Part shown: positions 2,455 to 44,881 of the stretch, piece after piece
How positions within the stretch are numbered: position 1 is the stretch's first letter
How the letters are laid out: every line of letters begins with the position of its first letter
Source: a virus
Virus record (IMG/VR): IMGVR_UViG_3300037246_000419
Location: 1 to 44,881 of that record
DNA: 44,881 nucleotides
Reading direction: 5' to 3' (one strand)
The notes under the pieces: generated by a model
Databases searched by the model: none
What the model saw: only the letters and a program-made list of their open reading frames with translations
Told to the model about the DNA's origin: nothing
Made by a program: the position numbers and the translations under genes

Positions 2455-3346
2455 GTCTACCGATAAGGCGACTGAAACCGAAGTACAGGAACCGACTACG
2501 AGCAAGCAACTTTGGGGTGATAAGTACCAGAATAACGGTCTACCTACTGTGGCGACTGAGGAACCCGAAGTGTCTGAGAACGTAAAAACCGAACCTGTTA
2601 CCGAGGAAGCACCTACTGAAACCGAAACACCTGAACCCGAATATCTTAATCCTGAAGACTTCGAGAACAAGTCGTTTAAGTTAAATGTTGGTGGGGAAGA
2701 AGTGACAGTGAACGTAAAAGACGCAATTCGACGTTTGCAGACAGATAAGTACCTAACACAAGAGGGTCAGAAACTAGCTGAAGAGAGAAGGCAGTTGGAT
2801 GCTCTGAAAAATAGCGTGGTTGATAAATCAACCGAAAATACGGAAGAAGACCCGTATAACGAAAGCTATGACGAAACTCCAACGCCAAAGGTATCCGCTC
2901 TTGAAAAGCAGATAGCTGAGATGTCAAAAGCTCTTGGTAATATTCAGCAGAACATGGCTCCTTCTGTGTACGAAAATAACATCAGGGCAATAGACGCTCA
3001 TTTGAAGACCGAAGGTTTCGATGACTTCATGGAATTCAAACCTGAGATAGAGGCTCATTTCTTAACCTTTTCAGTAGAAGACCAAGCAAGGATTGGTGAA
3101 CTGGATATGATAAATGAGTATAAAAACCGTAAAATCAAGAAGATGCGTGATGTTGCGGTGAATAAGTCTAGAGAACCTGCTGAAAATCGTCAGGCTCCGC
3201 TAGTTCAGGTTATTGGCGGGAGTGGTACTCCATCTAGTTCTAACACAGACGTTGATGCAGCGAGATACCGGAAAGCCTTTGAGAAAGCACAGGACTCAGG
3301 AAACTGGTCTGAAGTGTTTAGACTCAAAGAAATTCCCAATATGTAA
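2447..3346 (+). CDS. Scaffolding protein candidate
   Basis: A 299-residue protein whose start is set at ATG 2447 because GAAGGAG lies just upstream; a longer upstream extension would overlap the previous gene heavily. Residues 1-80 are very rich in Glu, Thr and Pro. The middle (about 95-190) is helical with coiled-coil character, and the C-terminus is basic. This composition, next to the major capsid gene, is typical of phage scaffolding proteins, which guide procapsid assembly and are then lost. Assignment is by position and composition only. Confidence 0.75.
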   Translation: MSESTDKATETEVQEPTTSKQLWGDKYQNNGLPTVATEEPEVSENVKTEPVTEEAPTETETPEPEYLNPEDFENKSFKLNVGGEEVTVNVKDAIRRLQTDKYLTQEGQKLAEERRQLDALKNSVVDKSTENTEEDPYNESYDETPTPKVSALEKQIAEMSKALGNIQQNMAPSVYENNIRAIDAHLKTEGFDDFMEFKPEIEAHFLTFSVEDQARIGELDMINEYKNRKIKKMRDVAVNKSREPAENRQAPLVQVIGGSGTPSSSNTDVDAARYRKAFEKAQDSGNWSEVFRLKEIPNM

Positions 3347-3356
3347 GGAATGAATC

Positions 3357-4265
3357 ATGGCAATACCTAGTAATACTTTTACCACCTATGAAGCTGTAGG
3401 AAATCGTGAAGATTTGACTGATGTAATAACCACGATAAGTCCTATTGATACATGGGTGACCGGTAATACCGGAAGCACACAGGCTGAGGCAAGATTTCAT
3501 GAGTGGCAGAACGACTCTCTCACCGCAGCAGCCGAGAACATAACGATAGAAGGCGATACTGCCACAACGGTTCAGGTAACTCCGACTACCAGAGACGGTA
3601 ATTACACTCAGACTCTCAGGAAAGTCTTTCAGGTTACGGATACCCAGAACGCTGTCCGTGTTGCCGGAAGAGAGTCAGAGAGTTCTTACCAGCTGACCAA
3701 ACACCTGAAAGAGCTTGCAAGAGACATTGAGTATGCTCTTGTTATCAACGCTTCTTCGGCCTCTGGTGCATCGGGTACTGCTCGTAGGATGACTGGCCTT
3801 TTGGGTTGGATTTCCACGAATAATACGACTGGTACTGGTACTGCTAACGAAGCTCTCACTGAAGACATGCTTAATGATAACCTTCAGGACATCTGGGCTG
3901 CTGGTGGTTTCCCGTCCAACGTACTTTGTGGTTCTTTCCAGAAGAGGACTATATCTGGTTTCTCCACTAACACCAGAAACATGACTGCCAGTTCCAAGCA
4001 GGTTACTGCTGCGATTGACATTTATGAGTCCGACTTTGGTACGATTGCCATAAGGCTACACCATCAGCTTAACACTACGGCTCCGGGTACTCTTATTGTA
4101 CTTGGCGATATGGGCCACTGGGTTAAAGCATGGCTACGTCCTGTACGGTCAGAACAGCTTGCGAGGATAAGTTCTTCTGAACGCTATATGATTGAGGCGG
4201 AACTTACGCTTGAGTCAAGAGCAGAGAATGGACATGGAAAGATAACGCTACTTACAACCTCGTAA
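3357..4265 (+). CDS. Major capsid protein (DUF5309/SU10-type, HK97 fold)
   Basis: A 302-residue protein with the characteristic opening of the DUF5309 (phage SU10-like) capsid family: TYEAVGNREDLTDVITTISPIDTW-like start, an N-terminal arm ending in a HEWQND block, then a QVTDTQNAV region and a Gly/Ser/Thr-rich loop. Proteins of this family fold like HK97 gp5 and build the icosahedral shell. The start has an AAGGAATG ribosome site. A strong hairpin follows the stop, consistent with protecting or limiting this abundant message. Confidence 0.9.
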   Translation: MAIPSNTFTTYEAVGNREDLTDVITTISPIDTWVTGNTGSTQAEARFHEWQNDSLTAAAENITIEGDTATTVQVTPTTRDGNYTQTLRKVFQVTDTQNAVRVAGRESESSYQLTKHLKELARDIEYALVINASSASGASGTARRMTGLLGWISTNNTTGTGTANEALTEDMLNDNLQDIWAAGGFPSNVLCGSFQKRTISGFSTNTRNMTASSKQVTAAIDIYESDFGTIAIRLHHQLNTTAPGTLIVLGDMGHWVKAWLRPVRSEQLARISSSERYMIEAELTLESRAENGHGKITLLTTS

Positions 4266-6259: not shown

Positions 6260-7372
6260 ATGAAAGTTACAGGAATAGTCAGGACAGATGGGGCTTGTGA
6301 CTTCTATAGGGCTTTACAGCCATTGGAGCAGTTGTCCTTGAATACAGAACACAAGGCGTATTTGATTAAACCTGGAGATAACGCAGACGATGTCTTTAAA
6401 TATATTGAAACTGCTGACGTAATTCTTCTTCCAAGAGTTGCAGACAGAGAGATGTTTAAGGTTATTAATAAATGGAAAGAACTTGGTAGAAAGATAGTTG
6501 TAGACTTCGATGACGATATTTTCAACGTAAGTCCTTTCTCTCCTCATTACGAAGAACATGGTTTGGAAGAAGTAACTGTTCAAATAAACGGTGAGGAAAA
6601 GAAACTATGGGAAGACGGAGTTAATTTTAATATCGAAGAGAATAAAAAGAACATAAGCACTTTAAAGGCGGCTGTTGCTCTAGCGGATATGGTTACAGTC
6701 ACTACTCCGATATTGGCAGAAGCATATAAACAGTATAACGACAATGTAGTTGATTTGCCGAATTGTATTGACCTGAATCTTTGGAGGCCATTGGATTTAA
6801 AGCCCAAAGATGAGATACGTCTCTTCTGGGCAGGAGGTTCATCACATTATGAAGATTGGTGCTTACTTTCGACAGTTATTCCAGAGATTATGGACAAATA
6901 TAAAAATGTTAAACTCGTCCTTCTGGGTATGAAGTTTGACGGAACCTTAAGCGGTATAGATAAAGACAGAATAGAGTTTCATCCGTGGGTTCATACTTCA
7001 GCTTATCCGTACAAAGTGGCAGGTTTAAACCCGACTATCGGGGTGATTCCTCTTGTGGACAATGAGTTCAACAGAGCCAAGAGTCCACTTAAATGGTTAG
7101 AGATGAGTGCCTTGGGAGTTCCATGCGTAACGTCTTTAGTCTCTCCGTACAAAGAGATAGCTACTGAGAACAACGGGGTCTTTATTAAGAATAACAGTGC
7201 TAGTGGTTGGGTCAGAGGAATTTCCCTGCTGATAGAGGATGCTATTCTAAGGGCAAAGATGGGTGGATACGCCCAGAGATACGTTGAGAAGAACTTTGAT
7301 GCCAAGAAGAACGCTCATTTATGGACAGATGCTTACATGACTTTACTTGAAGAGAAAAAAGAGGCTGTTTAA
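6260..7372 (+). CDS. Glycosyltransferase, GT-B/GT4-like
   Basis: A 370-residue protein with two Rossmann-like halves. The N-terminal VRTDGACDFYRALQPLEQL block is seen in phage-associated GT4-like enzymes. The C-terminal half contains RLFWAGGSSHYED (about 191-203), a GMKFDGTL stretch and a PLKWLEMSALGVPCVTS segment (about 275-292), corresponding to the nucleotide-sugar-binding part of GT-B transferases. Third member of the glycosyltransferase block, followed by a one-base overlap with the next gene. Substrate unknown. Confidence 0.8.
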   Translation: MKVTGIVRTDGACDFYRALQPLEQLSLNTEHKAYLIKPGDNADDVFKYIETADVILLPRVADREMFKVINKWKELGRKIVVDFDDDIFNVSPFSPHYEEHGLEEVTVQINGEEKKLWEDGVNFNIEENKKNISTLKAAVALADMVTVTTPILAEAYKQYNDNVVDLPNCIDLNLWRPLDLKPKDEIRLFWAGGSSHYEDWCLLSTVIPEIMDKYKNVKLVLLGMKFDGTLSGIDKDRIEFHPWVHTSAYPYKVAGLNPTIGVIPLVDNEFNRAKSPLKWLEMSALGVPCVTSLVSPYKEIATENNGVFIKNNSASGWVRGISLLIEDAILRAKMGGYAQRYVEKNFDAKKNAHLWTDAYMTLLEEKKEAV

Positions 7373-11750: not shown

Positions 11751-12854
11751 ATGGCTGGTGGACTCTTTTCAAGACTATTCACAAGAAATACTGGCGGTAC
11801 GATAAGTGGGCCTAATGATGATTCGGAATTTGATAACATTATATCAAATCTTCTGCCTGCCAAGATAGATGACTATTCTGCTACTACAGGACAAATGGAT
11901 TCAACCAAAGACCCATACCCGGCTTCTTCTCAGTCCCTAGCCACAAATGATGCTGAAGAAAAAGAGCATATGAGATGGCAATTTTCATTAATTATTGGGA
12001 AAGCCAAGTGGTATTTTGACCCTAGTGGTTCATTGGAGGATGTATTTGTTAACACGGCAACTTTTGCTGGCAAAAAGACCTTTACGAACAATCTAGTAAC
12101 AAGCAAGGGTGCGGATGTAGTCGCAGCGAATGCTTTACCTATTATAACAGACGGAAACTATTTTGATGTGACCGGAACGACTGCCATCACGACAATAGAT
12201 GCTATCGGTGTTGGGGTAGTTATAAGACTTCACTTTGATGCGATTTTGACATTAACCCACCATTCTACGAATCTTATCTTGCCAAGCGGAGCAAATATAA
12301 CCACCGCAGCAGGAGATGAAGCGACTTTCGTAGAATACACAGCCGGTAGTTGGAGATGTACTGATTACACGCGAGCAGATGGTACTTCCTTAACCTATAA
12401 GTCTGGGCAGACCATTCAGACCGTAACGTCCACGACTAATGCAGTAGCAACAGGTTCTACTGTTATGGCAATTACTGATAGTATCCCCGTAAAGACAGAG
12501 GGTGATGAATATCTAACACGAACCATTACCCCTAAGAGTGCCTCGAATAAATTGATTATCACTATCTTTGCTCAGTTGTCTGCTGGTGCAGGACTCAGAA
12601 TTGCCGGAGCTATCTTTCAGGACACCACAACTAACGCCTTAGCCGCAGGAGTCAATCTCCCTACAACAGCACTTGAATCAGATAATTTTACTTTAATCCA
12701 TATTATGTCAGCAGGAACTACATCTGCGACTACTTTTAAGTTTAGAGCAGGTCCAGAAGGAGCAGGTACCGTGACTTTGAATGGAGACAATGGTTCAAGG
12801 ATATTTGGTGGTGTATGTATATCAGCTATAACTATACAAGAGGTACAGGCATGA
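11751..12854 (+). CDS. Tail fibre-type structural protein
   Basis: A 367-residue protein; the start is set at ATG 11751 after AGGGAGAATAAA. The N-terminus is short and polar. Around residues 150-205 it has a LILPSGANITTAAGDEATF block followed by AGSWRCTDYTRADG, a repeat unit common in phage tail fibre and receptor-binding proteins. The C-terminal 130 residues (TVTSTTNAVATGSTVM, ITPKSASNKLIITI) match another widespread fibre C-terminal domain. Likely trimeric and exposed on the virion. Confidence 0.75.
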   Translation: MAGGLFSRLFTRNTGGTISGPNDDSEFDNIISNLLPAKIDDYSATTGQMDSTKDPYPASSQSLATNDAEEKEHMRWQFSLIIGKAKWYFDPSGSLEDVFVNTATFAGKKTFTNNLVTSKGADVVAANALPIITDGNYFDVTGTTAITTIDAIGVGVVIRLHFDAILTLTHHSTNLILPSGANITTAAGDEATFVEYTAGSWRCTDYTRADGTSLTYKSGQTIQTVTSTTNAVATGSTVMAITDSIPVKTEGDEYLTRTITPKSASNKLIITIFAQLSAGAGLRIAGAIFQDTTTNALAAGVNLPTTALESDNFTLIHIMSAGTTSATTFKFRAGPEGAGTVTLNGDNGSRIFGGVCISAITIQEVQA

Positions 12855-12895
12855 TTATACGTCCTTATACAGCAGATGACGGTAGGTTGAGATGA
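12851..12895 (+). CDS. 14-residue linker ORF
   Basis: A 15-codon frame whose ATG overlaps the preceding stop (ATGA) and whose stop overlaps the next ATG (ATGA). This double overlap could pass ribosomes from the fibre gene to the DDxxD gene. The peptide itself (MIIRPYTADDGRLR) need not have a function. Confidence 0.35.
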   Translation: MIIRPYTADDGRLR

Positions 12896-13341
12896 GTACA
12901 GACATTGAGAGAGAAGATATAGGTAAGAATCTAGGGGTTATTATTCCTATGTGTTGCAATGGGAACAAGGACGCTGAAGAGTATTTGAGGATGGTTTGTT
13001 TTTCTGTACGCATAATGGATGATGCTATAGACAAGGATAGAGAAATAAAAGAGGAGGACTTATATGAGTCTTACTTTTATTTATTTTCGGGGCTTGCGTC
13101 TAATCTATTTTATCTACAAAATATTCAGGCGTTAGCGAGCGTGCAAACTGTTGCGTTTAATGCTTGGATGGATGCTACAGAATGGGAAAAAGGTAACAAT
13201 GAGCAGAGACGGTACGCAAGCGTTATTCGTGACTACATCAATGAGATTTGTCCGTTAGTAGCGCACCTTACTGGAGGGTATAAGCTAATGAGAGAAGTAT
13301 CTTTAGTAATAAGAGAGTCCTTTATGAAGGAGGCGTTGTAA
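12892..13341 (+). CDS. Alpha-helical protein with a DDxxD motif
   Basis: A 149-residue, almost wholly helical protein. VRIMDDAIDKDREI (about residues 36-49) contains a DDxxD pattern reminiscent of class I isoprenoid-synthase fold enzymes, where such aspartates bind diphosphate through Mg. Length is about half that of a prenyl synthase and no second motif is evident, so it is more likely a phage-specific family of unknown role. Phage genomes often carry similar 'MDDxxDKD' proteins near tail genes. Coupled to the 14-codon ORF upstream. Confidence 0.7.
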   Translation: MSTDIEREDIGKNLGVIIPMCCNGNKDAEEYLRMVCFSVRIMDDAIDKDREIKEEDLYESYFYLFSGLASNLFYLQNIQALASVQTVAFNAWMDATEWEKGNNEQRRYASVIRDYINEICPLVAHLTGGYKLMREVSLVIRESFMKEAL

Positions 13342-14060
13342 TGGGCGTTTATTCTACAAAAGTCGAAGCACCCCAACCCAGCGAAGAAGAAAGACAGTTA
13401 CAGCAGCAGCAGTTTGAACTTGCTAACGAACAAAAAGCACAGAGAGAAGCCGAAAGACCTTTTCAACTAGCTGCTTTGGGTTTAGTCGAAGAAGATGGAA
13501 CCCTCCGAAGACAGACAGAAGAAGAGAGGGTCGCGGGATTAACCGAACTTCAGCAACAGCAGGAAGGTGTCCAGAGAGGTTTACTTGAAAGACAGCAGAT
13601 GGCTTTAGCTGGCGAACTTGACGTATCTCCTGCCCTAGAGCAAGACCTTCAGAGACAAGGAGGACTTCTTGAGGAGCAAATTTCCAGAAGCGGAAGAAGA
13701 GGTGGTACTTTAGGAGCTAGGCAGAGAAGTCTTTTCGAACAGAGAGCAGGTTTAGTCAGAGAAGAGGCTCGTAGAGGCTTAATAACAGGTCTCACAGGCT
13801 CGTCACTGGGTTTTGCTCAACTAGGAGGGCAACAGGCAGGTCAGCAGTTTGGAGGTCTTCAAGGACTTGGTGCGGGCGCACAGGGTACGATGGGACTTTT
13901 GAGTTCTGCGGCTCAACCCTTCCAGAATCAGAGAATGTTGGAGTTTCAGGCACAACAGCAGACTGCTCAGAATAGAGCAGGGTTAATAGGTGCTGGATTT
14001 GGTGCTGTAGGAACAGGAATTGGATTAGCAGCTACCCGCAAGGGTGGTTTGTTCGGTTAG
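13341..14060 (+). CDS. Internal virion / DNA ejection protein (Gln-rich)
   Basis: A 239-residue protein, strikingly rich in Gln, Glu and Arg in the first two thirds (runs of QQQ), then Gly/Ala-rich with a hydrophobic C-terminus (AGLIGAGFGAVGTGIGLAA, about 210-228). This layout matches the first of the ejection proteins that podoviruses inject into the host envelope. RBS AGGAGGCG precedes ATG. Followed by two larger proteins of the same type. Confidence 0.75.
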   Translation: MGVYSTKVEAPQPSEEERQLQQQQFELANEQKAQREAERPFQLAALGLVEEDGTLRRQTEEERVAGLTELQQQQEGVQRGLLERQQMALAGELDVSPALEQDLQRQGGLLEEQISRSGRRGGTLGARQRSLFEQRAGLVREEARRGLITGLTGSSLGFAQLGGQQAGQQFGGLQGLGAGAQGTMGLLSSAAQPFQNQRMLEFQAQQQTAQNRAGLIGAGFGAVGTGIGLAATRKGGLFG

Positions 14061-16825: not shown

Positions 16826-16935
16826 TGCCTATATTTATTAATAAATCCAAGAATAAGAAAAAAAAGAAAAAGAAGAGCGGTGGCTGCAACCACAGAACCA
16901 CAGAGGATATGAAGAAGAAGGGAAAGAAGAAATGA
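16825..16935 (+). CDS. Lys-rich small protein (36 aa)
   Basis: A 36-residue, very basic protein: residues 7-17 are nearly all Lys, then SGGCNHRTTEDMKKKGKKK. Its ATG overlaps the preceding stop and its stop overlaps the next ATG. Such peptides occur at the end of phage ejection operons; nucleic-acid binding or membrane interaction is possible but unproven. Confidence 0.6.
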   Translation: MPIFINKSKNKKKKKKKSGGCNHRTTEDMKKKGKKK

Positions 16936-17231
16936 TAGTTTTGATGGGAGCTATAGCCGGTAAAATCAGCGATTGGTTGCCTCATATGTGGCATTGGATT
17001 TTAGCTTGTATACCCGCTGTAACTGTTGCTTCTGGAAAAGCTAAGATTAACACAGCCCAGATAATACAATTCTTAATAGTTGCAGGGGTAGGTGGTATGA
17101 TAGCCGGATATATTACTCTTACGAAATTGGAAGTAAAGTTCGATATGATTGTAGATAAGATAGTTAATATAGAAAATAGTGTTAAGGAAATTCGTAAAGA
17201 TTTCTATAAACCACATTTGCCGGGGCATTAA
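16932..17231 (+). CDS. Small membrane protein, holin candidate
   Basis: A 99-residue protein with two predicted membrane segments (about residues 18-34 and 44-64) and a charged C-terminal helix (DMIVDKIVNIENSVKEIRKDF) of coiled-coil character. Size, topology and place just before the DUF5675 gene fit a holin, which would permeabilise the inner membrane. A second, better-recognised holin lies at 19840, so the two may act as holin and antiholin or one may have another role. Confidence 0.6.
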   Translation: MIVLMGAIAGKISDWLPHMWHWILACIPAVTVASGKAKINTAQIIQFLIVAGVGGMIAGYITLTKLEVKFDMIVDKIVNIENSVKEIRKDFYKPHLPGH

Positions 17232-17621
17232 GTGATACTGAAGCGTTTTGAACAGACAGATAAAGTAACTCGCGGCGTTCTTATCTATGAGAACAATGCT
17301 ATAGCTTTGACTCTGGAAAATCCGTGGAAAGGCAATACACCTAATATCTCTTGCATACCAACAGGGACTTACCTCTGTAAAAGGGTTGATTCTCCCAGAT
17401 TCGGAGAGACTTTCGAGGTTACAGACGTAGATGACAGAACGCATATACTTTTTCATTCAGGTAATGTAGAATCACAAACTAGAGGATGTATTCTTCTGGG
17501 GAATATGTTAACTAAGTACAAAGGCGAACCAGCAGTTTTAAATAGCAATAAGACAGTTAAAGAGTTTATGGATATACTGAGGGGAATAGATTCTTTCAGC
17601 TTAAATGTAGTACCAATCTAG
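17232..17621 (+). CDS. DUF5675 protein, candidate peptidoglycan enzyme
   Basis: A 129-residue protein starting at GTG 17232. The core IPTGTYLCKRVDSPRFGETFEV, ILFHSGN and RGCILLG blocks match the DUF5675 family. The invariant His in FHSGN and Cys in RGC recall the HxG...C arrangement of L,D-transpeptidase-like enzymes, which act on peptidoglycan. In the absence of any classical endolysin in this genome, and next to a holin candidate, it is the best candidate for the lysis enzyme. Biochemical role is not established. Confidence 0.7.
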   Translation: MILKRFEQTDKVTRGVLIYENNAIALTLENPWKGNTPNISCIPTGTYLCKRVDSPRFGETFEVTDVDDRTHILFHSGNVESQTRGCILLGNMLTKYKGEPAVLNSNKTVKEFMDILRGIDSFSLNVVPI

Positions 17622-17630
17622 GAGATACAA

Positions 17631-17984
17631 ATGAAGAGTTTTATCGTAGCAGTTTTGGCAGTAATGGTAATGGCAACTGGAGCAATGGCAGCAGATAGGG
17701 AAATTTACCTTGAGGCTACCCACGACATAGATGTGAGTAACCCTGAGTTCAGTACTTCTGACATCGACCTGAAGGCCGTAGCAAGGTTTTCTATCTGGAA
17801 GGGACTCGGTATAGACTCAAGTGTTTCAGGCTCACTAGCGCGGTCTTACGAGAACGCTGTAGTGACTGTAGGCCCACGTTATGTTAGTGGTGACTTCGAG
17901 GCTTCTCTTACTACGTCCTTTGCCGTAGATAGTACTAGTGACTTTGGTGATAATGCAGTAGCAAGAGTTAGATATAACTTCTAA
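17631..17984 (+). CDS. Exported beta-barrel-like outer membrane protein
   Basis: A 117-residue protein with a clear Sec signal peptide (MKSFIVAVLAVMVMATGAMA, cleavage after AMA). The mature 97 residues alternate hydrophobic and polar positions in about six strands and end in ...VRYNF, the terminal aromatic signal recognised by the BAM complex. This predicts a small outer-membrane barrel made in the infected cell. Roles such as superinfection exclusion or surface change are possible. RBS AGGAGATACAA. Confidence 0.65.
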   Translation: MKSFIVAVLAVMVMATGAMAADREIYLEATHDIDVSNPEFSTSDIDLKAVARFSIWKGLGIDSSVSGSLARSYENAVVTVGPRYVSGDFEASLTTSFAVDSTSDFGDNAVARVRYNF

Positions 17985-17998
17985 GTAAGGAGAAGACG

Positions 17999-18469
17999 AT
18001 GAGGAAATACATAAAATTTATTACGCTTGGGTTGATATTGGTTTTCTTGTCGTCTTTTTCTTATGCGGCAGATGATACCTTCCGTGGAGTAAGAGCAAAA
18101 ACTAGAGCATATATCGGTGCTATAGATGAGTCAAATGGTGAAGTTAGAATGGCTAAAGCTACTCCCGATGGTTACATAGGAGTTTCTGCGTTACCGTCTG
18201 CCGATTCTTTTGTTAATGTAACCACAGCTACAGATACCGATATTTGTCAGTCCGGTTGTACTATACTTAGAGTAATTATAGGTTTAGGGGATGCTGGCAC
18301 TTCGGTAGCTTTATACAACGACGCAGATGGAACATGTAGTTCTGGTTTGATTACTACGATAGATACAGCTACCGCAGGAGTTGTAGGAATAGGTCTTAGA
18401 ACTTCTATAGGACTCTGTATGACAAGTACAGGACATGACACAGGAAACGTAACGGTGATATACAAATGA
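17999..18469 (+). CDS. Exported protein with virion-type beta domain
   Basis: A 156-residue protein with a Sec signal peptide (residues 1-23, ending FSYA). The mature part contains TILRVIIGLGDAGTSVALYND, similar to a small beta domain common in phage decoration and fibre proteins, plus two Cys pairs (CQSGC, CSSGL...GLCM) that could form disulfides in the periplasm. Having a signal peptide is unusual for a virion protein. RBS AAGGAGAAG. Confidence 0.65.
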   Translation: MRKYIKFITLGLILVFLSSFSYAADDTFRGVRAKTRAYIGAIDESNGEVRMAKATPDGYIGVSALPSADSFVNVTTATDTDICQSGCTILRVIIGLGDAGTSVALYNDADGTCSSGLITTIDTATAGVVGIGLRTSIGLCMTSTGHDTGNVTVIYK

Positions 18470-19830
18470 GATATCTAATCTTATTGCTACTTTTAGTAGC
18501 TACTCCTTCTTTCGCTACTGACTATTACGTAGCCACTGATGGTAACGATGGAGATGCTGGCTCTATAGGTGCGCCTTGGCTTACTATCCAGAAGGCTGCG
18601 GATACTATGGTAGCTGGTGATACTGTATATGTTAGGGGAGGTACTTATGCGCCTTCTACAGGAGAGGGTGATTGCATTAGTGTTTGCGCTATAAAACCTA
18701 AATCAGGTACTGAAGGTAATCCCATAACTTATACTGAATATCCTAGCGAATCTGTAATTATAGATATGGAAGACGAACTTTCACCGCACAGATGGTTTGG
18801 TTTTTATATGATAGCAAAACATTATGTAACTATTGAAGGATTTGAAATTAAGAATATTTCAGCAGACGCAGGAATATGGGTATCAGATGACTCTTCTAAT
18901 ATAATTATCGATGGAGTAGAAATTCATCATATAGATGGTACTTTAGGAAATAATATAGCGGGTGTAGTCGCTCAAAATGTTTCCTATCTAACAGTTAAAA
19001 ACAGTAGTTTCCATGATAATACTGGTACTGGTGTCCAAGATAATAATAATGTAGCTGGTATTCTATCTCTAAGCGGATTCGACTATGCTGTTATAGAAAA
19101 TAACGAAATCTATAATGTAGGAATGGGTGTATTTAATAAACGCTCTGAAGGCAATAAGGGAGCAATTATAAGAGATAATGTTATTCACGATATAGATAAG
19201 GATGGTATCTTTTACTCTGTAGCTGGTGTGGGAGATAACCCTCTTATAGACGGAGAAGTATATAGAAATATTATTTATAACTTAACGGCAGGACAGTATG
19301 CTATCAATGCGATTCTTTACGAAACAGTTACGCAGAGTATTGGTTTAGATATATATAACAATGTCTTAGATGCTCCTAATGGTATATCTATTCGAGGAGT
19401 CAAAGAGGTAAACATTAAAAATAATATCTTCTACAACAATACCGGCAGGTCAATTAATCAGTTTGGCCCTGCTTCTGAGAACTCTATAGATTCTGCCGAT
19501 TATAATTTATACTACGCAAACGAGAATTTCAGACTGTTAGGTGGGGAGGGTGGAGAAGAGACTTACACCACCCTTTCGGGTTGGGTGGCAGGTACAATAT
19601 ATGGAGATAACAGTCTAAACAGTGACCCTCTTTTCACTAATCCTGGAGCCAATGACTATACTTTACAAGTACCTGATAGTCCCGCAATAGATGCAGGTGT
19701 GGACGTAGGCTTGGCATTCAATGGTTCTGCCCCTGATATGGGAGCTTTCGAGACTGATGGTGAAGCTCCTCCAGAGGGCACTGAGGGTAGAACAGCAGGT
19801 AGTGGTGATATAGACGAATTGGGATGGTAA
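18466..19830 (+). CDS. Exported right-handed parallel beta-helix protein
   Basis: A 454-residue protein with a signal peptide (MRYLILLLLLVATPSFA). It begins DYYVATDGNDGDAGSIGAPWLTIQKAADTM and VYVRGGTY, the hallmark of DUF1565/PbH1 parallel beta-helix proteins, followed by many NxxIxNN-type coils through about residue 400. Such folds bind or cleave polysaccharides. A tail-spike role would not need a signal peptide, so this may be a host-secreted glycan-active protein. Coupled to the preceding gene (ATGA). Confidence 0.75.
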   Translation: MRYLILLLLLVATPSFATDYYVATDGNDGDAGSIGAPWLTIQKAADTMVAGDTVYVRGGTYAPSTGEGDCISVCAIKPKSGTEGNPITYTEYPSESVIIDMEDELSPHRWFGFYMIAKHYVTIEGFEIKNISADAGIWVSDDSSNIIIDGVEIHHIDGTLGNNIAGVVAQNVSYLTVKNSSFHDNTGTGVQDNNNVAGILSLSGFDYAVIENNEIYNVGMGVFNKRSEGNKGAIIRDNVIHDIDKDGIFYSVAGVGDNPLIDGEVYRNIIYNLTAGQYAINAILYETVTQSIGLDIYNNVLDAPNGISIRGVKEVNIKNNIFYNNTGRSINQFGPASENSIDSADYNLYYANENFRLLGGEGGEETYTTLSGWVAGTIYGDNSLNSDPLFTNPGANDYTLQVPDSPAIDAGVDVGLAFNGSAPDMGAFETDGEAPPEGTEGRTAGSGDIDELGW

Positions 19831-19839
19831 GGTGATAAT

Positions 19840-20349
19840 GTGAAAAATAAATATATAGATTTGATAAAGACTTTCGCACCCACGATAGCTTCTGCTCTAG
19901 GTGGCCCTATGGCGGGCATGGCAACCAAGATGCTCTCCGAGACTCTCTTAGGCAAACCAGATGGCAAGAAGTCAGAGCTAATGAAAGCCGTTATTGGGGC
20001 TACGCCGGAAGAGATGATAAAGGTTCAGGAGCTTGAGAAGACTTTTGAACTTGAGATGGAGAAACTCGGCGTAGATGTATTCAAGTTAGAGGTTGAGGAT
20101 AGGAAGTCTGCAAGGGCTAGTAATAAAAGCGACAATACCCCTGCTATATTGGGTGTGGTGTGCTTTATAGGCTTCTTTGGTATACTTGCCGCCCTAATCT
20201 TTATCGACATACCACAGTCCTCTCAGGCGGCTTTAACGGTGATGTTAGGTTCTCTTGGAACTATAGTGGCTCAGATAGCTAATTATTACTGGGGTTCAAG
20301 CAAAAGTTCCTCAGACAAGAACGATACAATAGCAGGTTTGGTAAAATGA
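19840..20349 (+). CDS. Holin, 3TM superfamily (PF11351-like)
   Basis: A 169-residue protein starting at GTG. N-terminal Ala/Gly-rich helix (FAPTIASALGGPMAGMATKML), acidic middle helix, DRKSAR block, then two membrane segments (about 105-123 and 130-150) and a NYYWGSSKSSSDKND ending. This order and the W-G-S-S/K ending match the 3TM holin family known from gene-transfer agents and many phages. It would form the inner-membrane lesion for lysis. Confidence 0.8.
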   Translation: MKNKYIDLIKTFAPTIASALGGPMAGMATKMLSETLLGKPDGKKSELMKAVIGATPEEMIKVQELEKTFELEMEKLGVDVFKLEVEDRKSARASNKSDNTPAILGVVCFIGFFGILAALIFIDIPQSSQAALTVMLGSLGTIVAQIANYYWGSSKSSSDKNDTIAGLVK

Positions 20350-20663
20350 AGATAGCAACCATAACAGGGCTTATAACTATCTTCATGTTCACTTCAGCTG
20401 GACTTTACAAGGGTTATTCGGCTGTTAATCAGATAGAGGATAACAGGGTTGAGGTTGCCAGCGTAAACGATAAAGTCCGCAAGGCTGAGTTGTCTTGGTG
20501 GCAGTGGAAAAACGATGTCAGAATAAACTTCTTGACTGAGAAGATAAAGACCTCGGATGACCCTTACTTTATGAGGAAGATAGATGACTTGGAGAAGCAG
20601 AATCGTTGCCTTGAAAAAGCTAAAGAGATTCTCGGCAAACAACCTATAGAGTGTATGGAGTAG
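20346..20663 (+). CDS. Membrane-anchored coiled-coil protein, i-spanin candidate
   Basis: A 105-residue protein with an N-terminal membrane segment (about residues 4-21) and a long charged helical C-terminal part with two Cys near the end (NRCLEKAKEILGKQPIECME). This topology and the overlap with the holin gene (ATGA) suggest an inner-membrane spanin of the Rz type, which joins inner and outer membranes at the last lysis step. No separate outer-membrane lipoprotein partner was identified. Confidence 0.55.
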   Translation: MKIATITGLITIFMFTSAGLYKGYSAVNQIEDNRVEVASVNDKVRKAELSWWQWKNDVRINFLTEKIKTSDDPYFMRKIDDLEKQNRCLEKAKEILGKQPIECME

Positions 20664-20664
20664 T

Positions 20665-21765
20665 ATGTCTTTAGCTAAACCAGTAGGCGGTGTAGGTGGG
20701 GGTGTTTCCACTTGGGAGGCTTTAACCGATACAGATACTTTCTCAGGTAACGGGGGATTAACTCCTTATCTTAATGCCGGAGAAGATACACTTCTTTTTG
20801 GTGGGTGGAATTATGATGGGTCTGATTTATTTTTTACGTCTGGTAATGTGGCGATAGGTCACGTACCTACCCAGTTTAATGCACTCTCTATTAGGCACAC
20901 TACTACAACAGCCGAGTTAACTATTGACTCCGACGGAGAAAAATGGGAGCCTGTAAACGTCTTTTTTCATTACGATGCTGTCAACCCAGCTGGTACATTT
21001 GCTGTAGGTGGAAGTGCTATAAGGGGAAGAGTTTGGTACGGCGGTGGCGCTACTCCCCCAAGAGGTACTGTTCACGCTGGAAGTTTCCAGATGAAAATTA
21101 AGTCTGCTGGAAGTGCTAGTAACGAATACGCAGGAGTATTTAATGCTATAAACCACGAAGGTGGTATAGGCGGGAGGATATGGGGCCAGGATAATACCGT
21201 TACGGGGCCAAATACTTCTCAGGGCACACAGATGAACTTGATGGACGGCGCAGTGTATTGTATTAATAACTATCGTCCAGAAACAATCACTAACGGTAGT
21301 CACGGTATTGTTATAGTAACTCGACCGCATGCTGGGGCTGGAACCGCAGAAACACATATTGGAGATACTTCTTATCCTATAGATGCTGCCCTAGCTATTG
21401 TTGGATGGAGTGGAAAAGATAATAGAACAGCAGATACAGTAGGTTTCTCAACCGGTATACAGATTGGCGGTTTTGCGAGTGGTTGGATGCAATCAGGGGC
21501 ATCTAAGTTAGGTAAAGGTATTACGATAACTGATGTTGATGAGGCCTGTTTAGACGCAGACGGGGTTATCAAGATAGCTGATAATAGTCCGAGTACTCCC
21601 GAAGACGGTATGCTGAGATATGATGCTACTGATGGTTTTGAAGGTAGACATAACGGTTCATGGGATACTCTAGGCGGTGCTGCGGATTTTGTAGTTGATG
21701 GTGGAGCGTATACTGACCCTATAGGTGACATTGATAGAATAGTTGATGGAGGTTCATACGTCTAA
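20665..21765 (+). CDS. Tail fibre/spike-type protein
   Basis: A 366-residue, beta-rich, Gly-rich protein. It opens with KPVGGVGGGVSTWEALTDTDTFSGNGG and contains many strand-turn units; near the C-terminus TPEDGMLRYDATDGFEGRHNGSWDTL matches the short repeat seen in phage fibre proteins before a chaperone or tip domain. The next gene starts in its stop codon (TAATG). Confidence 0.7.
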   Translation: MSLAKPVGGVGGGVSTWEALTDTDTFSGNGGLTPYLNAGEDTLLFGGWNYDGSDLFFTSGNVAIGHVPTQFNALSIRHTTTTAELTIDSDGEKWEPVNVFFHYDAVNPAGTFAVGGSAIRGRVWYGGGATPPRGTVHAGSFQMKIKSAGSASNEYAGVFNAINHEGGIGGRIWGQDNTVTGPNTSQGTQMNLMDGAVYCINNYRPETITNGSHGIVIVTRPHAGAGTAETHIGDTSYPIDAALAIVGWSGKDNRTADTVGFSTGIQIGGFASGWMQSGASKLGKGITITDVDEACLDADGVIKIADNSPSTPEDGMLRYDATDGFEGRHNGSWDTLGGAADFVVDGGAYTDPIGDIDRIVDGGSYV

Positions 21766-23882
21766 TGGCTGATGGGATAAGATTTAAAAGAGGTAATGCA
21801 GCAGATAGACTAACTTTAAGCTCTGGGGAGCCAAGTCTTGACCAAGATTCTAAACAGGTTTGGGTTGGCGTTGGCTCTGGAGATTCAGCGGACGATATAC
21901 CACTCGCCAAGATTGCCCCTTTTACTGCTCAGAACCTATATGTAGCTACTACAGCTTTCGGTGGTGATGGTGTTGCAGGTGCTGGACGTACAGGTTTAGA
22001 GTTAGAGAGCGGCACAGCTACTTCAGGTGCGTCGGGAACTGCTCTTATAGATTCTGGTGCGGCTTTCACAACGGCATTAGTTGGGAAGGCTGTGTTCAAT
22101 ACTACCGATAATACTTGGGGAAAGGTAACTGCCGTACCGTCTTCAACACAACTGACTACAGGAGGTCATTCTATATGGGCAGTAAATGATGTTTATATAG
22201 TGTGTGATGCCATAGATAATGTGCAAGAGGCTTTCAATCTTATTGTAGCCCCTTTTAATTCGGCTACTACTATCTATATTTCAGACGGTACTTTTCCTGA
22301 AGACATAGAGTTCATTGGAAAAACTGCTGGTGGAGCTTTCACTTTAACTATCCAAGGTTCTACGTCAGGTACAACTACTATCGATGGCGAAACAACTATA
22401 AGACAAAGGATATTTTTTAGTAATCTCACTTTTATAGACAGAATTTTTGAGTTTTCTGGGGCTGATGTTGATTGGACTACTTGTATTGTTACCGCTAATA
22501 GACGGGGCTTCATAATTAACAAAGCCCCTAGTGTTGTAGCAAATATATTTAGGTCTTCCTCTGATGTTGTATTTGAAAACGACCCCGGCAACTATATCAA
22601 TGTTGGCTCTACGGTTACGATAGGGTATACTATATACACAGCTACACCCGCACTGGGCGGTGACGACTCGAACGATGGCCTTTTGGTTTCGCGCGGGGTC
22701 GCTACTTCTACTACAGCTAATAAATTAGTAGATAGTTCCGGTAAGTTTAACACAGCAGATTATCTAGGTAAAACCGTTTACAATATAAATGATGATACTT
22801 GGGCCGAGATAACCGCTATTGATTCCGCTTCTCAAGTTACACTTGATACCGACATTATGGTGACAGGGGAGGCGTACAGGGTTGCCGGAGCTAAAGCTAC
22901 AGTACAAGGTGGAACTGATGCAATACCTGGTACGAATAACTGTGATGTAATGGTAAGAATATCTAATGGTACTTTTGTTGAGAATGTTACTGTTCAGGGT
23001 AAAATCTATTCTGGCTCTTTTGGTATAACCTATCAGGGTACAAAGAACATTTTGGATTCTCTTACTGCTACGGCTTCAAGTACAACGGGTGGTGGAGCTA
23101 TACAGGGAACAGTTGACAGAAGTGCTGGCACTTGGACTGGGAGTGCTCGACAGCATAAGTGGGTTCGCTTTACTTCTGGGAACAATGATGGAGTATCTAG
23201 GGCCATAGATGATAACTCTACTACGCTACTTACTATTGTAAGTATATGGGTGGGTGCAATCGGTTCAGATACTTATGTGGTCGAAGAGCTTACTACTATA
23301 ATCCAGCCAGCTTCAAGCGATTGTATGTCTATCAAGCAACTTCAGGTTGGTATAACAATTAATGATATTGACCTTGAAGGTAGCGCGAGTGGTTATGGTA
23401 TTCTGGCTGAGTCGGATTCTTCAGTTGAGATGAATCGTTGCTTTTCCGACCCCGGCATTTTCACACCCGGAGGAAGCATTACAACCCATGACTGTGTGCT
23501 TATCGGGGGTGCAAGGTTTAATCGCGTAGCTTACGCAGCCAGTGGAGGCGAGTTATTTATAGATTCTACTAAGGTTGGAGTGAATGTGGCTGGTTCTACT
23601 GCGGTTTTAATAGCAGGAGTTTGTACTGCAAATATTAGAGAGGGAAGTATCCTTGATGGTCAAGGAGCAGCTACGCCTCAATATGGTGTATTGGCAGAGG
23701 CAAACACTCAGTTCGATTGTTTTGCTAGTGGTTCGCGTAATAAAGTTAAAAACTGGGGTGTTGCGGGTTTAAGAGGCCAGACTGGAGCGCAAGGATTTCT
23801 GACAACTTCTGGTCTTTACGTGGATTATTCCGGCAATCTTGCTGACATAACCGTAGATGCTCTCAGCTCACATATAACTTGA
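21765..23882 (+). CDS. Tail spike/fibre with Mtd-like N-terminal domain
   Basis: A 705-residue protein. Residues 3-45 (IRFKRGNAADRLTLSSGEPS then KQVWVGVGSGDS) match the short N-terminal module found in major tropism determinant and many fibre proteins that trimerise and attach to the tail. The rest is rich in beta-helix-like coils with two repeated blocks: 'LxxATTAFGGDG...ALIDSGAAF...VFNTTDNTWGKVTAV' and 'YTATPALGGDD...KLVDSSGKF...VYNINDDTWAEITAI', indicating an internal duplication. Likely receptor-binding or glycan-degrading spike. Confidence 0.75.
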   Translation: MADGIRFKRGNAADRLTLSSGEPSLDQDSKQVWVGVGSGDSADDIPLAKIAPFTAQNLYVATTAFGGDGVAGAGRTGLELESGTATSGASGTALIDSGAAFTTALVGKAVFNTTDNTWGKVTAVPSSTQLTTGGHSIWAVNDVYIVCDAIDNVQEAFNLIVAPFNSATTIYISDGTFPEDIEFIGKTAGGAFTLTIQGSTSGTTTIDGETTIRQRIFFSNLTFIDRIFEFSGADVDWTTCIVTANRRGFIINKAPSVVANIFRSSSDVVFENDPGNYINVGSTVTIGYTIYTATPALGGDDSNDGLLVSRGVATSTTANKLVDSSGKFNTADYLGKTVYNINDDTWAEITAIDSASQVTLDTDIMVTGEAYRVAGAKATVQGGTDAIPGTNNCDVMVRISNGTFVENVTVQGKIYSGSFGITYQGTKNILDSLTATASSTTGGGAIQGTVDRSAGTWTGSARQHKWVRFTSGNNDGVSRAIDDNSTTLLTIVSIWVGAIGSDTYVVEELTTIIQPASSDCMSIKQLQVGITINDIDLEGSASGYGILAESDSSVEMNRCFSDPGIFTPGGSITTHDCVLIGGARFNRVAYAASGGELFIDSTKVGVNVAGSTAVLIAGVCTANIREGSILDGQGAATPQYGVLAEANTQFDCFASGSRNKVKNWGVAGLRGQTGAQGFLTTSGLYVDYSGNLADITVDALSSHIT

Positions 23883-23883
23883 T

Positions 23884-24372
23884 ATGGCTAATACTAAAAC
23901 ATTCATACTCGACTGGTCTGTGACCGGACTTACCGTTTACTTTATCTGCGTAAGGTCGGTGGATTCCTTTAGGCTTGATGATGGTGACGGGGATTTTGCA
24001 ACCTCTCCAGCCGACCCTTATATATCATGGACTGAGGATTCTGTGTTAAAGGGACGCTACAGCCTCTCTGAGAGCCGTCAGGTTTGGGACAATGGTCTGT
24101 ATACCTACGCCGTCTACAAGCAAGCAGGAGGCTCCCCTGCGCCTGTAAGCGATACAATCATAGGCACGGGCGAGTTAGCAATAACAAACGACACGGAAGT
24201 TAATGCCATTTTCCTCGGCGATTTGCACGATGAGACGTTCGGTACTTGGACGGTTGACCCAACTGGTAAGACGTTAACTTTACTCAAATCAGATGGTTCA
24301 GCACTTAAAGTCTTTGATTTAACCTCTACGGCTACTGACGTTCCTTCCTTTATCGTTAGAACTCCCCAGTGA
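23884..24372 (+). CDS. Tail-tip-module protein, function unknown
   Basis: A 162-residue protein with the pattern of a small beta-sandwich: WSVTGLTVYFICVRSVDSF, LDDGDGDF, then YSLSESRQVWDNGLYTYAVYKQ. Resembles accessory fibre proteins that follow the main spike gene. GTG of the next gene overlaps its stop. No catalytic motif visible. Confidence 0.65.
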   Translation: MANTKTFILDWSVTGLTVYFICVRSVDSFRLDDGDGDFATSPADPYISWTEDSVLKGRYSLSESRQVWDNGLYTYAVYKQAGGSPAPVSDTIIGTGELAITNDTEVNAIFLGDLHDETFGTWTVDPTGKTLTLLKSDGSALKVFDLTSTATDVPSFIVRTPQ

Positions 24373-27423: not shown

Positions 27424-27521
27424 GACCACGCTCCTCTGTGACTCCAAAAGACAAGATAGCTTGTTGAATATCTAGCTTCTATTGGGAGCTTAAAACATCC
27501 TGCACTAATATAATTCTTCAT
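27420..27521 (-). CDS. 33-residue microprotein
   Basis: Begins MKNYISAGCFKLPIEARYST and ends WSHRGAWS. ATG overlaps the stop of the HNH-AP2 gene (ATGA) and GGGGGGCT is directly upstream. No family recognised; overlap and ribosome site are the evidence. Confidence 0.5.
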   Translation of the reverse strand: MKNYISAGCFKLPIEARYSTSYLVFWSHRGAWS

Positions 27522-27997
27522 AGCCCCCCTTTTATCTCATTCAGGCAAGCGAATTCTCCATGATATTCAATGGCTGCTTTATTGTAAATCCTCGCTGCTT
27601 CATGCTTACAATCATAGCGTCCCAAATGAAGTCTTTGACCAGAAATGCAAATCTGCACTTGCCACTTACCGTCCGTATGCCAACTCACACCCTTATAGCC
27701 TGACTTATTATTGCTTTGCTTTGTTTTATTTCTACAGTTTTCCACTCTATTACAAAGACGAAGATTGCATTTCCTATTGTCTAGTGTATCTCTATTTATA
27801 TGGTCAACCTCTAGTCCTCTTGGTGCATCCAAAATGATTCTATGCATCAATATAACTTCCCGCTTACCCTTTCCTCTCGGCCCATTCCTCCTTGCATCTC
27901 CCTTAGCATTATAATGCCATTTAAACTTATCTAGTCTTTCAAAATCTTCATCATCGACCAATGCTACTTTACCTTGCGTAAGCTGGATTTCTTTCAT
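27518..27997 (-). CDS. HNH homing endonuclease with AP2 DNA-binding domain
   Basis: A 159-residue free-standing homing endonuclease. The HNH core includes LMHRIILDAPRGLEVDHINRDTLDNRK and NLRLCNRVENCRNK; the C-terminal AP2-type DNA-binding domain is SGYKGVSWHTDGKWQVQI to LHLGRYD and ends with IEYHGEFACLNEI. It shares N-terminus MKEIQLTQGKVALVDDEDFE with the paralogue at 42544. Selfish elements of this type insert between genes and cut sites lacking them. Confidence 0.9.
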   Translation of the reverse strand: MKEIQLTQGKVALVDDEDFERLDKFKWHYNAKGDARRNGPRGKGKREVILMHRIILDAPRGLEVDHINRDTLDNRKCNLRLCNRVENCRNKTKQSNNKSGYKGVSWHTDGKWQVQICISGQRLHLGRYDCKHEAARIYNKAAIEYHGEFACLNEIKGGL

Positions 27998-42444: not shown

Positions 42445-42572
42445 TGTGCGAGGTTTGTGAGTTGATGTGGTTTATATCATGTCCTAGTCTTTTGCATAAG
42501 GATTACTGGTCTAAATACAGAATGGGTCAGTTTAGGGGGAGTCGTGAAGGAGATACAGCTAACTCAAGGTAA
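42444..42572 (+). CDS. 42-residue Cys protein
   Basis: Begins MCEVCELMWFISCPSLLHKD; CxxC at residues 2-5 and a later Cys. ATG shares one base with the preceding stop. The 3' end overlaps the HNH-AP2 start by 29 bases, suggesting truncation by that insertion. Confidence 0.5.
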   Translation: MCEVCELMWFISCPSLLHKDYWSKYRMGQFRGSREGDTANSR

Positions 42573-43002
42573 GGTGGCTATAGTTGATGACGAAGACTTT
42601 GAGTACCTCAACCGATGGACTTGGCATTATTGCACTGGGTATGCCAAAAGAATAATTGATATTAACGGTAAACGGAAAAGAATACGGATGCATAGGGCCG
42701 TTTTGGATACCCCAGATGGCATAGAGACAGACCATATAAATCGTAATAAATTAGATAACAGAAAAGAAAACTTAAGATATTGTACTCGTGCTGAGAATAT
42801 GAGGAATGTCTGCACAAGAGGCAATAATCTATCGGGATATAAGGGAGTTGGTTGGAATCTTGGTAAATGGCGTTCAAGAATAACAATCGATGGTAAACGA
42901 ATATGTTTGGGACGCTTCGTGAATGTTAAGGATGCAGCACAAGCTTATAATAAATCAGCAAAAGAGCATTATGGCGAATTCGCTTACTTGAATAAGCTTT
43001 GA
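42544..43002 (+). CDS. HNH homing endonuclease with AP2 domain
   Basis: A 152-residue paralogue of the 27518 enzyme, in GTG start form. HNH core MHRAVLDTPDGIETDHINRNKLDNRKENLRYCTRAENMRN and AP2 domain LSGYKGVGWNLGKWRSRI to LGRFVNVKDAAQAYNK. Site-specific, selfish, lies just upstream of the packaging genes. Confidence 0.9.
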   Translation: MKEIQLTQGKVAIVDDEDFEYLNRWTWHYCTGYAKRIIDINGKRKRIRMHRAVLDTPDGIETDHINRNKLDNRKENLRYCTRAENMRNVCTRGNNLSGYKGVGWNLGKWRSRITIDGKRICLGRFVNVKDAAQAYNKSAKEHYGEFAYLNKL

Positions 43003-43475: not shown

Positions 43476-44881
43476 CGAGTTAAAGCTCTCTATTGAGTTG
43501 ACTCAGGAGGCAGACCCTTTTTGGTTTTTCGTTCCCTCTGATGGTTCTATCTCTTCCGAAAGGATGGAGTTTCTAAGAGAGTTTTTAAAAGAAGATGATT
43601 TACCATCTGGGAATTTAGACTCTCAACTTGATTGTGTTTTAAGCTCTGCCAACGTAGTAGGTGCTTCAGGTGGTAACAGGGCTGGCAAGTCAGCGGTAAG
43701 TTCGATTAAAGGCTATATAAAGTCAACAGGAGAGCTGCCACAGTCTTTAAAAGAGTATGAGCACAGTCCTTCGATAGCTAGAGACATTGACCGTTTTAAA
43801 AGGCGTTTCGCCAAGGGACAACCGATACTGGGACGTGTTATAGGGGTAGATTTTAAACAACTATCAAATACAGTTATCCCGACATGGCAGAAGTGGGTTC
43901 CAAGACAATATTTGCTAAATGGCAGATGGAAGGATTCTTTTTCGGTACAACATAGTACTTTATCTTTGTTTAAGGACAATATTTGCTGCGCCAAGATAGA
44001 GTTCATGACAAACCAGATGGATGCCACTTCCTTTCAGGGGCCGGACTTAGATTGGGTAATGTATGATGAAGAGCCTAAGTTGTCGATATACAAAGAAAAC
44101 AACTACCGTTTTGGTACTTCTGAGTATCTTGACGTTGGGATATATTGGACACCGACTCAGGGGTTGACTTGGGCTACTGATTTGTTCCATAACTCAGGAT
44201 TATTCGATGATGACGAAGATGCTAAGGAAACAAACGTAGAATTATTCAAATTATGCTCAGTAACGAACAAAAAAGTGAACGTGGAAGTCTTAAAGTCTAT
44301 ACTGGCAGACGCTTCTTCCTACGAAGAGATAAGAATGAGACTTCTAGGGGAGGCTATATCGCTTTCTGGTTTGGTTTATGGACGACTTTTCACGAAAGAG
44401 CATATTATACAGCCATTTTACGAGAAAGTTTGTAATACCGAGGATTATTTGTGTATTACAGGTATGGACCCTCACTTAGTAACACCGAGCGCATTTGTTT
44501 TTCTCTTAGTAGACAGAGAAGGAGTCTGGTATATCGATAGATGCCACTCAGATGACGGAGATACTGAGGAAATGAAAAAACATTGGCATGATATTACCAC
44601 AGATAACAGATACAGAACAGGTTGGGCCGTTGCAGATAAATCGAGCAATAGCTCAATCATGGCCTTTGGTGGACGAAACATATTCCGAGAACTTAGTATG
44701 GGAGAAAATGCAATCCCTGCTCTTAGAACTTCGGAGAAGTACGAGGGGTCAATCAAGGCTGGAGTGGACGAAATCAAGAAACGACTCCGTAATAAGACTC
44801 TTTTTGTCGTTGACAGAGCCGAAAACAAAGAATTAATACGCTCTTTCAGGACTTTAGAGAGAGAAACTTACGCAAACGAAG
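43402..44881 (+). CDS. terL: Large terminase subunit (continues at base 1-276)
   Basis: The packaging motor ATPase/nuclease, 542 residues when joined across the circle. Walker A G90-GNRAGK-S97 (GGNRAGKS), Walker B with D222 followed by E223 and E224 (LDWVMYDEEP), and an RNase H-fold nuclease with D356 in GMDPH and D412 in VADKS. It cleaves concatemers and pumps DNA through the portal. The chosen ATG at 43402 has no good ribosome site, and an upstream small gene overlaps it. The stop is at 274-276. Confidence 0.94.
   Translation, partial: MARKLTKRAREKKKALLAELIKKHDELKLSIELTQEADPFWFFVPSDGSISSERMEFLREFLKEDDLPSGNLDSQLDCVLSSANVVGASGGNRAGKSAVSSIKGYIKSTGELPQSLKEYEHSPSIARDIDRFKRRFAKGQPILGRVIGVDFKQLSNTVIPTWQKWVPRQYLLNGRWKDSFSVQHSTLSLFKDNICCAKIEFMTNQMDATSFQGPDLDWVMYDEEPKLSIYKENNYRFGTSEYLDVGIYWTPTQGLTWATDLFHNSGLFDDDEDAKETNVELFKLCSVTNKKVNVEVLKSILADASSYEEIRMRLLGEAISLSGLVYGRLFTKEHIIQPFYEKVCNTEDYLCITGMDPHLVTPSAFVFLLVDREGVWYIDRCHSDDGDTEEMKKHWHDITTDNRYRTGWAVADKSSNSSIMAFGGRNIFRELSMGENAIPALRTSEKYEGSIKAGVDEIKKRLRNKTLFVVDRAENKELIRSFRTLERETYANE
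44755..44881. repeat. 127-bp terminal direct repeat, right copy (assembly overlap)
   Basis: Exact copy of bases 1-127. It allows the large terminase gene to be rejoined across the window edge. A true packaged terminal repeat cannot be excluded from sequence alone, but its position inside a coding frame and its exact length of 127 favour an assembly artefact. Confidence 0.95.

Follow-up and report, generated by a model that had tools for sequence, protein, structure and literature searches.

Does the infected cell export three signal-bearing proteins that a phage encodes one after another, or does the phage build them into its particles? This question is raised by the virus contig IMGVR_UViG_3300037246_000419, which was analysed over its entire 44,881 bases (the window).

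Genome and gene context

The window has an exact 127-base direct terminal repeat (positions 1 to 127 are identical to 44755 to 44881), and thus the genome is very probably complete and was assembled as a circle. Since the portal protein matches PF23899 (E = 1e-32) and the major capsid protein PF17236 (E = 1e-79), the phage is an SU10-like podovirus. No near DNA relative was found in the phage collection searched. The three genes and their neighbours are as follows.

16932 to 17231, + strand: holin-like ORF, 99 amino acids, one transmembrane or hydrophobic stretch; position and length match L019:16169-16438
17232 to 17621, + strand: DUF5675 protein (PF18925, E = 1.4e-30), in the slot taken by a GH108 endolysin in L019
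17631 to 17984, + strand: gene 1, 117 amino acids, Sec/SPI signal peptide at residues 1 to 20, putative small outer-membrane barrel, possibly oligomeric
17999 to 18469, + strand: gene 2, 156 amino acids, signal peptide at residues 1 to 23, spacer at about 24 to 70, beta-sandwich at about 71 to 156 with four cysteines
18466 to 19830, + strand: gene 3, 454 amino acids, Sec/SPI signal peptide at residues 1 to 17, right-handed parallel beta-helix
19840 to 20349, + strand: holin-like ORF with C-terminal hydrophobic segments (phrog_1544)
20346 to 20663, + strand: short protein with an N-terminal hydrophobic segment and a coiled tail, in a spanin-like position
20665 to 21765, + strand: fibre-like protein without signal peptide, probable virion fibre
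21765 to 23882, + strand: fibre-like protein without signal peptide, probable virion fibre, weak Mtd_N N-terminus

The match of this last N-terminus to the Major tropism determinant (PF18454, E = 9e-4) is below the Pfam cut-off. The three genes had been described as lying between lysis genes, and whether this is so depends on how the neighbours are identified. By family name the description could not be upheld; PHROGs gives no function label for the lysis-like ORFs around the three genes. By synteny it stood, and the lysis assignment is made because of it: the relative L019, which has window genes 14070, 15302 and 19840 in common, encodes in the matching stretch a holin-like ORF, a GH108 endolysin (L019:16435-16971; PF05838, E = 1e-20), a short protein with a hydrophobic N-terminus and the homologue of 19840. 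The DUF5675 protein is a probable peptidoglycan-acting lysis protein. In the corresponding region of L019 there is one signal-bearing protein (L019:13417-15282), located between two fibre-like genes, weakly alignable with the beta-helix and without a Pfam match. Genes 1 and 2 are absent there, which counts against reading the three genes as an export cassette.

Three complete signal peptides in a row

Signal peptides were scored with an in-house heuristic based on charge, hydrophobic stretch and AxA-type site, not with SignalP. The original prediction of three consecutive plus-strand genes with Sec signal peptides was borne out at the coordinates listed: the signals are MKSFIVAVLAVMVMATGAMA/AD in gene 1 (score 5.6), MRKYIKFITLGLILVFLSSFSYA/AD in gene 2 (4.62) and MRYLILLLLLVATPSFA/TD in gene 3 (5.4). 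Each is predicted to be complete, with a positive n-region, a hydrophobic h-region and an AxA-type cleavage site near residue 17 to 23. When N-termini were shuffled (n = 3509), a score of 4.6 was reached in 0.14% and a score of 5.0 in none, and in the related phage loci only 1.6% of 1302 genes scored 4.0 or more; therefore, three consecutive signals are not due to chance. The signal-bearing starts are credible as well, since a GGAG ribosome-binding site precedes the starts of genes 1 and 2 and the start of gene 3 overlaps the stop of gene 2 by 4 bases (ATGA).

Gene 3 encodes a beta-helix behind an added signal

Gene 3 had been called a parallel beta-helix protein, and indeed it matched PF13229 with an E value of 6e-11 (42.6 bits; curated cut-off, 25.9 bits) and DUF1565 (PF07602) with 9e-7 over residues 25 to 226 (28.9 bits; cut-off, 20.3 bits). 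The first residues behind the predicted cut are those of the domain (TDYYVATDGND), whose N-terminal module matches the xylosidase 3vst and the rhamnogalacturonan lyase 5olq in the PDB. Alignments to Polysaccharide lyase family 9 and GH120 cover this N-terminal module only (residues 19 to 62 and 19 to 128). Any function of gene 3 is read from its fold and is putative.

The closest relatives by sequence are bacterial proteins (L112, 30 to 35% identity). A heuristic signal was found in 32 of 59 bacterial relatives, and many of the others have signal-like N-termini or are truncated. The phage relatives occur in two forms, signal-less and signal-bearing, with the same module behind the signal. The signal-less ones (L003, L005 and L089) start with MTTYYV.., exactly at the predicted cut point of gene 3 (SFA/TDYYV), so that the signal of gene 3 is a clean add-on. 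In a tree with low resolution near the gene 3 protein, phage proteins with and without a signal are mixed with one another and with bacterial sequences; the starred branches force at least three changes between the two forms, and L108, which has a signal, groups with the signal-less L109 at a support of 99/95.

Like the secreted bacterial PF13229/DUF1565 proteins, gene 3 has a signal peptide followed by a (T/A)xYYVA..GND module and a beta-helix; unlike them, it is encoded by a phage within a cassette of the fibre/lysis region, and no catalytic residues were identified in it. With the beta-helix tailspikes and depolymerases of tailed phages it has in common the right-handed beta-helix, the fibre region and signal-less phage homologues. 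However, gene 3 has a Sec signal peptide and no virion-attachment domain was recognised in it, and on these two points it is not classed with the virion beta-helix tailspikes.

We also considered that gene 3 might be an exported decoy derived from a fibre of this phage, but the beta-helix had no detectable similarity to the signal-less fibres of the same genome. The number of cysteines in signal-bearing beta-helix proteins did not differ clearly by inspection and was not used. Several signal-bearing phage beta-helix proteins (gene 3 and those of L004, L100 and L007) have a short C-terminal tail whose last residue is tryptophan (..ELGW, ..GIHWMW, ..GGIW).

Genes 2 and 1

Gene 2 is predicted to be an exported relative of a small phage protein family. 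Its only homologue among the viral loci is L004:1348-1722 (phmmer E = 5e-6), which is itself signal-bearing and directly 5' of a signal-bearing beta-helix gene. The L004 protein has in turn a signal-less homologue (E = 2e-3) of 93 amino acids in Podoviridae sp. MW202785.1, encoded two genes behind the major capsid gene. Gene 2 and its L004 homologue have the cysteine pair TCSSG..GLC in common, whereas the signal-less protein has neither cysteine. A cysteine pair restricted to the signal-bearing members would be expected if just those fold in an oxidising compartment. An AF2 model of gene 2, built from a two-sequence alignment, is a beta-sandwich with a pLDDT of about 62 to 78 in the domain. 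With this query model (pLDDT 62 to 78), Foldseek matched the C-terminal domain to A0A0F7L9H8 (E = 5.5e-6, target TM 0.66), one of the small signal-less caudoviral beta-sandwich proteins named 'pol-like polyprotein' in UniProt. Four cysteines and a beta-sandwich modelled at modest confidence fit the earlier description of a disulfide-rich beta protein. A weak PDB sequence match (E = 0.073), to a protein named 'tail wing arm', was not recovered with a refined profile and was set aside.

For gene 1, an outer-membrane barrel had been suggested. The mature chain of 97 residues, very small for a monomeric barrel, is rich in alternating beta-strand patterns, with a residue alternation above that of shuffles (P = 0.023). 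Its C-terminus, NAVARVRYNF, is an outer-membrane beta-signal with a final F and hydrophobic residues at -3, -5, -7 and -9; very few survey genes have such a C-terminal pattern, and gene 1 is the only one on the plus strand with a signal peptide. The suggestion thus draws its support from the beta-signal and the strand-like alternation, the AF2 single-sequence model (pLDDT 39) being uninformative either way. An outer-membrane location is plausible. At the search sensitivity applied, gene 1 had no relatives among phages, viral contigs or 84,980 genomes of bacteria and archaea, and this orphan status counts against the export cassette. Searches of Pfam, PHROGs and PDB sequences gave no Lom/Ail/OmpX family match. 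Phage_OMP (PF24653) was rejected since the match (E = 0.09) is below the cut-off and covers mainly the signal peptide, and a gene of L082 with a signal and a C-terminal F was discarded as a parallel because it encodes a different kind of protein.

Signal-bearing beta-helix and fibre genes in other phages

Runs of signal-bearing beta-helix or fibre genes were found in L006 (three genes), L007 (two), L095 (three), L106 (several) and L108 (three), and further cases in L004 and L111. These phages are unrelated, and the runs have viral surroundings and lie in a tail/structural, fibre or lysis context. The signal-bearing genes of L004 are flanked by the virion structural genes phrog_2941 and phrog_3287, the run of L108 by phrog_12985 and the head closure gene Hc3 (phrog_578); in L007 the run lies between the tape measure and tail assembly/J-like genes, and in L106 it adjoins a holin-like ORF and an amidase. 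L095:1681-3771 is signal-bearing and matches a tail-fibre PHROG. The clearest case is L108:6705-8456, which has a signal peptide in place of the virion-type N-terminus but retains the C-terminal domain: residues 199 to 582 are homologous to tail fibres or tailspikes of three isolated phages, Vibrio phage 1.243.O (E = 5e-56), Pantoea phage AH01 (E = 2e-28) and Klebsiella phage RSU-F4K5 (E = 1e-30), all of which lack the signal peptide and have a different N-terminus.

Another signal-bearing neighbour was present at 7 of 11 loci around signal-bearing beta-helix genes compared with 2 of the 13 loci of signal-less beta-helix genes (Fisher P = 0.033), a moderate enrichment in a small set, in which the short signals of L106, just under the cut-off, were counted on the wrong side. 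That the enrichment is only moderate counts against the export cassette. The survey set, small and gathered mainly through beta-helix similarity, is not a measure of the overall frequency of such genes.

Some further observations were made in these loci. Window gene 23884-24372, 3' of the fibre genes, has a homologue (L004:3965-4534, E = 1e-24) directly downstream of the signal-bearing beta-helix gene of L004, and a near-identical gene occupies this place in L100. L015, a phage relative found through window gene 14070, encodes two signal-bearing fibre-like proteins (2764-4179 and 12167-13669) without a beta-helix match.

Destination and proposed role of the three proteins

The infected cell rather than the virion had been proposed as the destination, and the complete signals on unrelated proteins encoded side by side support this. 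The export reading also gained support from the extra cysteines, which only signal-bearing members of the gene 2 family have, and from the recurrence of the arrangement in unrelated phages. Because the signals are complete, occur on neighbouring proteins that are unrelated and recur in different types of phage, we favour export over relics, and it is likely that the three products are exported by the infected cell. The domains are drawn from the pool of fibre, spike and small virion proteins and from secreted bacterial beta-helix proteins.

If the signals were vestigial, a gene for a secreted bacterial beta-helix protein would have been acquired and would now encode a virion tailspike, its signal being a relic. 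The bacterial origin of the closest relatives, mostly with signal-like N-termini, and the signal-less beta-helix proteins in phage fibre regions (L003, L005 and L089) would fit. However, a relic leaves unexplained why three unrelated adjacent genes have intact signals and why signals occur on phage-type domains (gene 2 and the L108 fibre); moreover, the signals have not decayed, and the tree alternates between the two phage forms. We regard this as quite improbable. A signal-bearing protein with a tail-fibre match, as in L095, and the fibre-like sequence retained behind the signal in proteins of L108 and L007 would also be compatible with virion proteins that are exported or released and attach to particles after lysis. 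This is highly improbable, since the window already encodes signal-less fibres and genes 2 and 3 showed no recognisable domain for anchoring to the virion; furthermore, to our knowledge, fibres of tailed phages are assembled in the cytoplasm.

Accessory moron cargo unrelated to adsorption would be secreted as well and would alter host surface, adhesion or nutrition during infection or in a carrier state. Such cargo would fit with the wide secretion of proteins of this beta-helix family by bacteria and with the match of the N-terminal part of gene 3 to polysaccharide-active enzymes. Yet the site between lysis and fibre genes, together with the presence of such genes in the fibre regions of other, unrelated phages, indicates the adsorption or lysis stage, and no lysogeny gene was recognised among the window proteins scanned. 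We therefore consider cargo of this kind rather unlikely.

We propose instead that the three genes form an export cassette of the fibre/lysis region, probably expressed late. The infected cell, probably a Gram-negative one, would make the proteins, export them through Sec and cleave them. The product of gene 1 would then go to the outer membrane, whereas the other two would fold under the oxidising conditions of the periplasm, the beta-helix remaining there or reaching the surface. Most likely, the exported proteins would bind, mask or degrade the surface glycan or receptor that is recognised by the signal-less fibres of the phage. Such action would reduce superinfection and the loss of progeny to debris and ease release. 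Since the window has signal-less fibre-like genes (20665 and 21765), the cassette need not be the adhesin of the virion. The observed basis is intact signals, gene order, the folds of genes 2 and 3 and recurrence, from which we infer export, timing, location and function; the reading as a whole, including a function at the envelope or receptor, has in our view an even chance of being correct. As for its purpose, superinfection block, receptor alteration and glycan degradation are candidates. Neither a catalytic site nor a receptor was recognised, which weighs against the proposed reading, and the sequence is compatible with blocking and degradation alike.

The superinfection-exclusion envelope proteins Llp of T5 and Cor of phi80/T1 are small lipoproteins. 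The role proposed for the cassette would resemble theirs in that the infected cell exports a protein that acts on the receptor, but the cassette has SPI signals and one of its proteins is a 454-residue beta-helix. Lom of phage lambda has a signal peptide and is an outer-membrane beta-barrel encoded between the tail-tip and side-tail-fibre genes (PMC12309495). Like Lom, gene 1 is phage-encoded in the tail-fibre region with a signal peptide and features of the outer-membrane type; unlike Lom, it is shorter (97 residues when mature) and outside the Lom/Ail/OmpX family. Lom is described as expressed in lysogeny, whereas no indication of lysogeny was seen among the scanned proteins of the window phage. 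Of the known systems, Lom is the closest precedent in position and export, but it is not a homologue.

More tentatively, and with some doubt, the cassette may belong to a recurrent, unnamed class: Sec signals would redirect receptor-binding or depolymerase domains from the tail-fibre pool, and the infected cell would display or secrete them as an exported counterpart of the virion adhesin that masks or destroys receptors. No description of such a class was found in the portion of the open-licence literature covered by our search. If it exists, superinfection control and remodelling of the envelope would have a layer that has gone unnoticed, and the class would provide depolymerases that are secreted naturally. 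Fibre and spike proteins are usually studied as parts of the virion, and an exported class would mislead the annotation of receptor-binding proteins.

Elsewhere in the window, a glycosyltransferase gene (6260-7372; phrog_7162, E = 2e-45) lies within the virion structural operon, and two paralogues that are 57% identical are encoded far apart on opposite strands (27518-27997, - strand; 42544-43002, + strand).
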